From: Heyndrickxia coagulans 36D1
GTDB taxonomy: Bacteria > Bacillota > Bacilli > Bacillales > Bacillaceae_C
DNA: 64,000 nucleotides
Direction of reading: 5' to 3'
Assembly (NCBI RefSeq): GCF_000169195.2
Contig: NC_016023.1
Location: forward strand, 3,224,001 to 3,288,000
The position numbers and the translations under genes are program-made. Positions 26,706-30,511 of the stretch are shown here, in pieces; the first letter of the stretch is position 1, and each line of letters begins with the position of its first letter. The notes below the pieces were generated by a model. It saw nothing but the letters and a program-made list of their open reading frames with translations. It made no database searches and was not told the origin of the DNA.

Positions 26706-27659
26706 ATGGCGACATTGGCCCGTACGAAAAAGAAAGATTTTTTAACAATCGGCGCGCTGCAGGAAGAGGAGCTGAACGATCTGCTCCAGGAAGCGGCCGC
26801 TTTAAAAAAAGCGCATAAAGAAGGGAAGGAGACCCCGTACTTAAAAGGGAAAGTGCTCGGTATGATTTTTGAAAAATCATCCACGCGCACCCGGGTTTCA
26901 TTTGAAGCCGGCATGCTCCAGCTCGGCGGCCACGCTCTTTTCCTCAGTTCAAGGGATATTCAGCTCGGGCGCGGTGAGACGATCCATGACACGGCAAAAG
27001 TGTTGTCGCGTTATGTCGACTGCCTGATGATCCGCACATTCGCGCACGAAACCATCGAATCTTTTGCGCGCCACGCAGATGTCCCTGTGATCAACGGGCT
27101 GACCGATCTGCACCATCCGACCCAGGTTTTGGCCGATTTGCTGACCATTCAGGAATATAAAGGACAACTGGCCGGGCTCAAAATCTGCTACCTCGGGGAC
27201 GGCAATAACAATATGTGCCACTCATTGCTCGAGGGGGCGGCAAAGGCGGGTATGCATATGTCCGTCGCTGCCCCGGAAGGCTATTTGCCGAATGCCGGCA
27301 TTCTTGCCGGGGCTCAAAAAGAAGCGGCCAAAAAAGGGGTCTGTATTGAAATGGGCCAAAACCCGGAAGAAATGATCCGGAATGCCGATGTGGTCATCAC
27401 CGATGTGTGGGCGAGCATGGGGCAGGAAGACGAAACGAAGAAACGGCTCGAAGATTTACAAGATTATCAGGTAAATGAATCATTATGCAAACTGGCAAAA
27501 AAAGATTTTCTTTTCCTCCATTGCCTGCCCGCCCACCGCGGCGAAGAAGTCACGGAGGCGGTCATTGACGGCCCGCATTCCGCGGTTTTTGACGAGGCGG
27601 AGAACCGGCTCCATGCCCATAAAGCCATTTTAAAAAAACTACTGGAAAATGTTGAATGA
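26706..27659 (+). CDS. argF: Ornithine carbamoyltransferase
   Basis: 317 residues. The carbamoyl-phosphate loop is SSTRTR (59-63), followed by HPTQVLADLLT, and the ornithine-binding HCLPAHRGEEV near the C-terminus. It makes citrulline. AGAAAGGAAG precedes the ATG, 17 bp after carB. It ends the first arginine operon; an ARG box follows before argG and no terminator is visible, so read-through is possible. Confidence 0.97.
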   Translation: MATLARTKKKDFLTIGALQEEELNDLLQEAAALKKAHKEGKETPYLKGKVLGMIFEKSSTRTRVSFEAGMLQLGGHALFLSSRDIQLGRGETIHDTAKVLSRYVDCLMIRTFAHETIESFARHADVPVINGLTDLHHPTQVLADLLTIQEYKGQLAGLKICYLGDGNNNMCHSLLEGAAKAGMHMSVAAPEGYLPNAGILAGAQKEAAKKGVCIEMGQNPEEMIRNADVVITDVWASMGQEDETKKRLEDLQDYQVNESLCKLAKKDFLFLHCLPAHRGEEVTEAVIDGPHSAVFDEAENRLHAHKAILKKLLENVE

Positions 27660-27665
27660 ATCCGA

Positions 27666-27689
27666 TATAATGGGTGTATAAAAATTCAA
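27666..27689 (+). promoter_or_regulatory. ARG box and probable argG promoter
   Basis: TGTATAAAAATTCA (27675-27688) is a perfect 14-base ARG box core. TATAAT (27666-27671) lies just before it; the -35 is poor. AhrC repression of argG is expected. Confidence 0.75.
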
Positions 27690-27727: not shown

Positions 27728-28942
27728 ATGGCAAAGGAAAAAATTGTATTGGCCTACTCAGGCGGTTTGGATACATCCGTATCGATTAAATGGATTCAGG
27801 AAAAATACGGCTATGATGTTATTGCGCTTGGCATTGACGTCGGCGAAGGCAAAGATTTAAATGCAATCCGCCAGAAAGCGCTGAATGTCGGTGCAATCAA
27901 AGCTGTGATCATAGACGGGAAAGAAATGCTTGCAAAAGATTATATATTGCCGGCATTAAAGGCAAATGCGCTCTATGAAGGAAAATATCCGCTGTCTTCT
28001 GCGATCAGCCGCCCGCTTATTTCAAAGCTTTTGGTAGATGTCGCGGAACAGGAAGGCGCCGTTGCCGTGGCGCACGGCTGTACCGGAAAAGGGAACGACC
28101 AGGTCCGTTTTGAAGTGTCCGTTCAGGCGCTGAACCCGAACCTGAAAGTCGTTGCGCCTGTCCGTGAATGGGGCATGACCCGCGATGAAGAAATTGCATA
28201 TGCGGAGAAAAACAATATTCCGATTCCGGTAGACTTAGATAATCCGTTTTCGATTGATGCCAATATATGGGGAAGAGCGTGCGAAGCCGGCGTCCTTGAA
28301 AATCCTTGGAACGAAGCGCCGGAAGCAGCATTCGACTGGACTGCGCCGATCGAAATGACGCCGGATGAGCCAGAATATATTGAAATTACGTTTGAAAAAG
28401 GCGTCCCGGTTGCCTTAAACGGCAAAGCGATGGGCCTCGTCCAAATGATCGAAGAGCTGAACCTGACAGCCGGCAAACATGGCATCGGCAGAATCGACCA
28501 TATTGAAAACCGCCTTGTCGGGATCAAATCGCGCGAAGTATACGAAAACCCTGCTGCAGTCGTGCTGATCAATGCCCATAAAGAACTGGAATTTTTAACG
28601 CTGCCACGTGAAGTGACACAATTTAAAACAACGGTGGAACAGCAGTTGACCAAAATCATTTATGAAGGGCTCTGGTATTCGCCGTTAAAGGCCGCGCTCG
28701 ATGCGTTTGTCGAGGAAACACAGAAAACGGTCACCGGCACGGTCCGCGTGAAACTGTTTAAAGGCACCCACACGGTAGTGGCAAGAAAATCCCCATACAG
28801 CCTGTATAATGAAGAACTGGCGACCTATTTGAAAGGCGATTCGTTTGACCATAATGCTGCAGTCGGCTTCATCAAACTGTGGGGGCTGCCGACAAAAGTA
28901 TTTGCCGAAATCCAGGAAAACGGGAAAGTGTTAAATCAATAA
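27728..28942 (+). CDS. argG: Argininosuccinate synthase
   Basis: 404 residues. The N-type ATP pyrophosphatase loop is [15 protein letters not shown], with later [16 protein letters not shown] for citrulline and aspartate. It joins citrulline and aspartate using ATP. ATG 27728 is preceded by GGGAG; an 18-codon upstream extension runs into the ARG box. It is separated from argH by a 186-bp leader containing three hairpins. Confidence 0.97.
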
Positions 28943-28945
28943 GCC

Positions 28946-29099
28946 ATTTGGCCGTTGTTTCTGATGTTAAATCATAAGCACGGCAAATTTCAAGGTTGGA
29001 ACCGGCCCGTTCAGGTATTTTTCACCTGTTTACCGGGCCGGGAGAAAACGGTAAAATATCCGGAAGGCTGTGGCGGTTTGCCGTGCAGCCTTCATTTTT
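28946..29099 (+). promoter_or_regulatory. Structured argG-argH intergenic leader (candidate attenuator)
   Basis: Three hairpins follow each other. P1: ATTTGGCCGT (28946-28955) with ACGGCAAAT (28980-28988), one G bulged. P2: CCGGCCCG (29002-29009) with CGGGCCGG (29034-29041), inner stem CAGGT/ACCTG. P3: terminator at 29063-29099. GCACGGCAAA (28978-28987) is also perfectly complementary to TTTGCCGTGC (29077-29086) in the P3 loop, so P1 and that pairing exclude each other. No known riboswitch or T-box signature is seen. Confidence 0.6.
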
Positions 29100-29100
29100 T
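29063..29100 (+). terminator. Intrinsic terminator between argG and argH
   Basis: GAAGGCTG and CAGCCTTC, with an inner GGC/GCC stem, are followed by ATTTTTTAATT. It lies 29 bp before the argH start, as an attenuator would. Confidence 0.75.
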
Positions 29101-29128
29101 AATTCTATTGCAGCAGGAGGAAATGACA

Positions 29129-30511
29129 TTGTCAAAGCTTTGGGGCGGACGTTTTACAAAGGAAACGAATCAGCTTGTTGAAACCTATACAGCTTCGATC
29201 GGATATGACCAAAGGCTTGCTTTTGAAGATATTGAAGGGAGCCTTGCCCATGTCCAAATGCTTGGCGAATGCGGCATTTTGCCTGAGAACGATGTGGAAC
29301 AGATCAAAGCAGGGCTTCGGAAAATTGCCGAAAAAATTAAAAACGGGGAAGCAGCATTTACAGTTGAGAATGAAGATATCCATATGAATATCGAAAAAAT
29401 GCTGATGGATGAAATCGGCCCTGCCGGCGGGAAGCTGCATACAGGGCGGAGCCGGAATGACCAGGTTGCGACCGATATGCACCTGTATGTCCGGAAAACG
29501 ACAAAAGAAATGATCCGCCTGATTGCGCTCGTCCAGGAAGCCATCGTGACGAAAGCAAAAGAAAACAAAGAAACGATGATGCCCGGTTACACCCATCTGC
29601 AACGGGCGCAGCCGGTGTTGTTTGCCCACCATCTTCTCGCTTATTTTTGGATGCTGGAACGTGATAAAGAGAGATTTTCAGACAGCTTAAAGCGGACGGA
29701 CTGGCTGCCGCTCGGTGCCGGGGCGCTTGCCGGGACGACTTTTCCGATTGACAGGGAACGGACGCGCGAACTGCTCGGATTTTCCCGCATTTATCCGAAC
29801 AGCCTGGATGCTGTCAGCGACCGCGACTTTGTGCTTGAATTTTTGGCAAATGCCGCTATATTGATGACGCATATTTCCCGTTTGTCGGAAGAACTGGTGC
29901 TGTGGTCGAGCCAGGAATTCCAGTTTATCGAGCTGGATGATTCTTTTTGCACGGGGTCAAGCATTATGCCACAAAAGAAAAATCCCGATGTCCCCGAACT
30001 TTTGCGCGGGAAAACGGGAAGGGTGTTCGGGAACCTCATCGGGCTGTTGACCGTCCTGAAAGGGTTGCCGCTTGCCTATAATAAAGACATGCAGGAAGAT
30101 AAAGAAGGCATTTTTGATACGGCTGATACGCTTCAAGGGGCGCTTAAGCTGCTTGCGCCGATGATTGAAACGATGAAAGTGAACCGGGAGAAGATGTTCC
30201 GGGCTGTCTCGAACGATTACGCGAATGCAACCGATATTGCCGATTATTTGGCAAAAAAAGGGCTGCCGTTCCGTGAGGCGCATGCGGTGATCGGGCAGAT
30301 TGTCCTTTATGGCATTCAGCACGGCAAGTATTTGCTTGACCTGACACTGGATGAATACCAGTCGTTCAGCCCGCTTTTTGAGGCCGATATTTTTGAAGTG
30401 CTGAAACCGGTTCATGTTGTAAAAATGCGGAACAGCGCCGGGGGAACAGGACATGCACAAGTGGCGGCACAGCTTCAGATGGCGGAAAAACAACTCCGCA
30501 AACCGGATTGA
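29129..30511 (+). CDS. argH: Argininosuccinate lyase
   Basis: 460 residues from TTG 29129, giving the usual start (M)[17 protein letters not shown] is 8 bases upstream, only 2 from ATG 29123. The fumarase/aspartase signature is [12 protein letters not shown], and [13 protein letters not shown] and TRLQ-type [12 protein letters not shown] segments form the active site. It splits argininosuccinate to arginine and fumarate. Its expression probably depends on passing the leader terminator at 29063, since I find no good promoter in the gap. Confidence 0.96.

Follow-up and report, generated by a model that had tools for sequence, protein, structure and literature searches.

Known attenuators and internal terminators

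T-boxes and amino-acid riboswitches are transcription attenuators with which a hairpin ahead of a biosynthetic gene can be compared. A different kind of element, and the closest described case that was met, appears in the available part of PMC9045158: in the ABC-importer operons of Clostridia, internal terminators lie between operon genes and the efficiency of termination sets the ratio of the flanking transcripts; the same source, citing Lalanne et al. 2018, states that internal terminators are widely remodelled between bacteria. For argG and argH themselves, a described system is argGH of Listeria monocytogenes, which is controlled by ArgR/AhrC through an ARG box in the argG promoter (PMC5291005, which also quotes the B. 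subtilis ARG box consensus CATGAATAAAAATKCAAK). The tables available from PMC4448311 place a computed switch candidate of B. subtilis before argG and not between argG and argH, and the abundance table of PMC4342826 gives 2,738 for argG and 2,187 for argH of B. methanolicus MGA3. In our own survey (see below), the two genes are separated by 3 nt in Listeria ilorinensis (L054) and by 0 nt in B. methanolicus PB1 (L047). The original prediction for the locus studied here knew of no described argH leader of its kind, and none was met in literature searches on argG/argH terminators, leaders and AhrC.

The arginine cluster and the argG promoter

The window, that is, the whole stretch of DNA analysed, comprises 64,000 nt of Heyndrickxia coagulans 36D1 (NC_016023.1, positions 3,224,001 to 3,288,000), whose genome of 3.55 Mb is a single contig. 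According to the open reading frame lists, it carries an arginine cluster that runs from an argC-like gene (18004) through carA, carB and argF (26706-27659) to argG and argH; we take these arg and car names from sequence resemblance and gene order. All 60 relatives searched have a match to ArgH; in 56 it is at least as good as about E 1e-188, and in four it is only weak. The features at and around the two genes are:

27643-27671, plus strand: promoter-like site TGGAAA-17-TATAAT before argG (promoter scan, 10/12)
27675-27688, plus strand: ARG-box-like operator TGTATAAAAATTCA before argG, one mismatch to TGAATWWWWATTCA
27728-28942, plus strand: argG, named by resemblance, from ATG 27728 to a TAA stop ending at 28942
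29129-30511, plus strand: argH, with a TTG start

The pattern TGAATWWWWATTCA, allowing up to two mismatches, occurs six times in the window against 6.0 expected, and a single ARG-box-like match is therefore weak evidence. The motif TGTATAAAAATTCR lies upstream of argG in each of the five genus genomes, and a -10-like box stands beside it in the four inspected; by eye, the argG -10 of the relatives reads TATAAT in G003 and G004 and TATGAT in G001. Because the motif and its adjacent -10 are shared, argG is probably transcribed from an AhrC-type promoter of its own within the larger arg cluster, with argH following in the same unit.

Between the argG stop and the argH TTG lies a gap of 186 nt (28943-29128). 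It contains no stop in the argH frame (62 codons), which gives a 518-aa open reading frame from 28955. This open frame is not kept in the nearest informative relative, G003, whose gap of 161 nt does not divide by three; a leader peptide was rejected for this reason and because the translation, judged by eye, is not arginine-rich. The gap has no Rfam match at the gathering score, and a permissive search of 28800-29200 returned three matches at chance level (E 1.6 to 9.6), so that a known Rfam family was rejected at both thresholds. The only match in the window at the gathering score is the BsrF sRNA (RF01411; 62530-62648, minus strand, 72.4 bits).

Hairpins and terminator in the gap

The original prediction described three hairpins in this gap, the last of them an intrinsic terminator shortly before argH, and folding bears this out. 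The elements are:

28951-28984, plus strand: hairpin 1 (folded as 28949-28988, z -4.1)
28978-28987, plus strand: segment GCACGGCAAA, the exact reverse complement of TTTGCCGTGC at 29077-29086
29002-29041, plus strand: hairpin 2, CCGGCCCG...CGGGCCGG (folded as 29000-29043, z -4.5)
29029-29057, plus strand: promoter-like site TTTACC-17-TAAAAT just before the terminator hairpin (promoter scan, 9/12)
29063-29100, plus strand: intrinsic terminator, stem 29063-29093 and T-run 29095-29100 (folded as 29060-29100, z -4.3)
29077-29086, plus strand: segment TTTGCCGTGC in the terminator loop and 3' arm, complementary to 28978-28987

The stretch 28940-29105 folds at -63.7 kcal/mol (z -4.85) and the exact 186-nt gap at z -3.6; in neither case was the fold equalled by any of 200 shuffles, and hairpin 1, hairpin 2 and the terminator are each more stable alone than all 200 of their own shuffles. 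The terminator has the anatomy of an intrinsic terminator, a G+C-rich stem closely followed by a U-tract: its stem comprises 13 pairs with one bulge (-18.4 kcal/mol) and is followed by ATTTTTT. The simple terminator scan did not list this hairpin, presumably because the stem is bulged.

The T-run ends 28 nt and the stem 35 nt before argH, which leaves too little room for a promoter and a ribosome site after the hairpin. Because of this spacing, argH depends either on transcripts that read through the hairpin or on a promoter located at the hairpin or upstream of it; the 35 nt would fit an internal terminator that tunes the ratio of two genes.

A search of the genome with 28940-29052 found no second copy better than E 0.1, and a dispersed repeat was rejected on these grounds. 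A 7-bp inverted repeat, TTTACCG/CGGTAAA (29029-29035 with 29049-29055), shares bases with the 3' side of hairpin 2 and could form in competition with that hairpin.

Comparison within the genus

The source genome (G000) and four congeneric genomes provide four distinct gaps. The gap of G002 equals that of G000 letter for letter (0/186 differences), an identity that is uninformative because argG is identical as well (0/1221 differences, counted for argG together with 6 nt upstream). The argH genes show 14 differences in 1383 positions. Downstream of argH (L004/L005), 1497 nt fail to line up without gaps, with 1123 mismatches. Together, these comparisons hint that DNA was recently exchanged, with one end of the exchanged stretch close to argH.

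The terminator is conserved in one sister species. In G003 (ArgH 89% identical) it is the only part of the gap that aligns well: it carries one change in the loop and a U-to-C substitution by which a U.G pair of the stem becomes C-G, and its T-run is kept. In both genomes the T-run follows shortly after the stem (six T in G000, seven in G003). The sequence before the terminator is not convincingly alignable, hairpin 1 included. G003 has two upstream hairpins of its own at similar places (z -2.7, with 3/200 shuffles as good, and z -2.0, with 7/200; z -2.4 and 4/200 for the 90 nt that span them), and their sequences are unrelated to hairpins 1 and 2. The two remaining gaps are shorter. In G004 (85 nt), the outer stem AAGGCTG...CAGCCTT is kept, with 9 nt before it and no clear T-run; in G001 (78 nt), the hairpin is unrelated and likewise has no clear T-run. 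Both hairpins nevertheless pass the lenient tail requirement applied in the survey described below, and both genomes have almost no sequence ahead of them.

Covariance models gave a corresponding picture within a short reach, since both models were built on two identical sequences. In 60 genomes, the model of the whole gap (R1) matched the argG-argH gaps of G000, G002 and G003 (38.7 bits) and gave seven further weak matches in six other genomes (E 0.002 to 0.6); in 40 loci, only G000, G002 and G003 were found at E <1, and the one other match lies on the reverse strand at E 2.8. The printed alignment indicates that the G003 score comes mostly from the terminator. The model of hairpins 1 and 2 alone (R2), the kind of Infernal search that the original prediction had proposed, matched no argG-argH gap other than those of G000 and G002 in 39 loci and the five genus genomes. 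Its three other weak matches in the 39 loci (E 0.5 to 1.6) lie outside the argG-argH gaps of the relatives, and one weak match in the genus genomes (E 0.04) lies elsewhere in G003, not in its gap. Neither Rfam nor the R2 model thus provided a conserved aptamer or a known family.

Terminator-like hairpins between argG and argH in other genomes

In total, 106 argG-argH gaps were read (from 30 loci, 17 of 80 loci, a further 20, and 39 of 40 hand-picked stretches), all from the highest-ranking ArgH matches and not from the full set of 366 matching genomes; one locus (L186) was lost since argG was not found in its stretch. Sixty gaps measure 0-34 nt, one 49 nt, and 45 at least 50 nt. After two duplicates (L005, L034) had been dropped from the last group, 43 gaps were left, 40 of which (up to 480 nt) were scored for hairpins of -8 kcal/mol or better with at least five T in the next eight bases; the three longer ones (L043, L139, L143) were left unscored, and L139 and L143 have a terminator-like hairpin. 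Expected numbers came from 12 dinucleotide shuffles of each gap.

Such a hairpin is present in 24 of the 40 scored gaps against 8.8 expected, and in 23 against 3.8 at -12 kcal/mol or better. Thirteen of the 24 end within 49 nt of argH, and by eye their sequences differ between genera. The survey shows that terminator-like hairpins recur between argG and argH, which is recurrence and not function, because the genomes are related and the control consists of shuffled gaps rather than other same-strand gaps.

Two further peculiarities were seen in the gaps. Seven loci of one genus (g17: L130, L138, L141, L146, L147, L150, L157) contain long, similar structured stretches that look like dispersed repeats by eye, and in L143 and L145 many CGCAAG-type repeated units follow the terminator-like hairpin.

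The proposed strand exchange and other explanations

The original prediction went beyond the terminator and proposed that segment 28978-28987 switches between hairpin 1 and the terminator. The ten perfect base pairs on which it relied are real, and they form the longest Watson-Crick complement in the gap. Dinucleotide shuffles gave a 10-bp pairing anywhere in 6 of 500 cases and one with a span of at least 60 nt in 3 of 500; of 6000 random placements in the window, 48 reached 10 bp or more. If G-U pairs are counted as well, the duplex extends to 12 nt, a length attained in 34 of 1000 cases when the upstream part was shuffled by mononucleotides. Among surveyed gaps with at least 20 nt before the hairpin, only the one in the window has a 10-bp upstream complement; the second longest, 9 bp in L141, had 300 nt to choose from. 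The complement is thus expected by chance in about 1% of cases, which is somewhat unusual and not extreme. It was also singled out post hoc, and it is not decisive.

A regulated attenuator or riboswitch, in which under some condition the 3' strand of hairpin 1 would pair into the loop and 3' arm of the terminator and thereby weaken termination, would draw on this complement, on the stability of all three hairpins and on the two upstream hairpins at similar places in G003. The competing strand itself is absent from the three informative relatives: in G003, the longest Watson-Crick complement to the hairpin is 4 nt (9 nt if G-U pairs count, a length that 148 of 1000 shuffles also attain), and in G004 and G001 hardly any sequence precedes the hairpin, so that no mutually exclusive pairings are conserved. 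Moreover, equilibrium folds, which are computed without pseudoknots and thus bear on a plain exchange and not on the pseudoknot variant of the original prediction, disfavour the alternative. Forcing it costs 9.4 kcal/mol in a transcript ending at 29105 (-53.2 vs -62.6) and 7.8 kcal/mol in one reaching argH (-59.5 vs -67.3), and the printed probability of the alternative pairs is 0.0000. Together with the lack of an Rfam match, these results make a strand-exchange or ligand-dependent switch highly improbable, and this part of the original prediction is not supported. It had regarded missing compensatory changes or missing conserved hairpins in relatives as evidence against itself, and this is what was found for the switching segment but not for the terminator. 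A fast-evolving variant, in which the order of the three hairpins is kept and not their sequence, the strand from hairpin 1 invades the terminator, and argH is tuned to the state of the pathway apart from AhrC, is improbable to a similar degree, if still conceivable because G003 has upstream hairpins of unrelated sequence.

The hairpin might also be a full terminator of argG, with argH transcribed from its own promoter at 29029-29057 and the hairpin placed at the 5' end of the argH mRNA. The gap does contain this site, and by eye an A+T-rich stretch precedes the hairpin in G003 as well, but a relaxed scan of the G003 gap found only one 8/12 site, at the gap start about 60 nt before the hairpin and thus at a non-matching place, and it found no site in the gaps of G004 and G001. 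Single promoter-like sites are weak evidence, because a stricter scan of 16 kb returned 26 of them where shuffled sequence gave 16.5 (sd 4.8), and the terminator would fall within the first 30-40 nt of such a transcript. A separate argH promoter is accordingly unlikely. A hairpin of mRNA processing or stability that protects the 3' end of argG, and does not terminate transcription in the cell, would agree with the outer stem kept in G004 without a clear T-run; the six- and seven-T runs of G000 and G003 follow the stem as soon as in intrinsic terminators, which renders this reading quite improbable.

A probable leaky internal terminator of argGH

The reading we favour, at a probability of roughly 0.7, is a constitutive, leaky internal terminator of an argGH unit under AhrC-type control, which lowers argH relative to argG. 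Transcription would start at the AhrC-type promoter just before argG and may additionally arrive from carB-argF. At the hairpin 29063-29093 and its T-run, part of the polymerases would stop, leaving an argG RNA whose 3' end is protected. The remainder would read through, so that argH would be made at a level below that of argG and in fixed proportion to it. The sequences of hairpins 1 and 2 are not conserved, and these two may aid the stability of the 3' end. The sequence shows the anatomy of the terminator, its conservation in G003, the shared operator motif and the recurrence of such hairpins in other genera; the leakiness of the terminator, a partial read-through that serves to set the expression ratio and the lack of a ligand are inferred. 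The recurrence of terminator-like hairpins in argG-argH gaps and the precedent of the Clostridia operons speak in favour of this reading. Several observations count against this leaky terminator: the promoter-like site in the gap, from which argH could have its own start; the complement at about 1%; the upstream hairpins of G003; the lack of a clear T-run in G004 and G001; the 16 of 40 scored gaps that have no terminator-like hairpin; and the relatedness of the surveyed genomes together with their shuffle control. The suggestion in the original prediction that argH is attenuated apart from the argG operator keeps its ground in this form, as the predicted terminator could do so and its stem and T-run are kept in G003.

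If this reading is correct, a leaky terminator holds the dosage of argH below that of argG in H. coagulans and its sister species, and Bacilli in which argG and argH are separated have gained terminator-like hairpins between the two genes repeatedly. This would fit the known view that internal terminators, which are rapidly remodelled, tune the stoichiometry of operons, and it would add a case from the arginine pathway. The feature is real, and it looks like ordinary dosage tuning by a known kind of element.

With T-boxes and amino-acid riboswitches, the locus shares a terminator before a biosynthetic gene and a possible competing pairing; unlike them, it has no family match, no conserved aptamer that could be found and no conserved competing strand, and its hairpin sits after argG, inside the cluster. 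As in L. monocytogenes argGH, where an ARG box lies in the argG promoter and the two genes form one unit, an ARG-box-like motif stands at the argG promoter and argG and argH probably form one unit, whereas a terminator in the gap is not mentioned in the available part of PMC5291005. The internal terminators of Clostridia, as far as the available part of PMC9045158 describes them, belong to another pathway, and their efficiency was measured, whereas the argG-argH terminator is known from sequence; what they have in common with it is a stem-loop between two operon genes, followed by a U-rich tail, in a position suited to lowering expression of the downstream gene.
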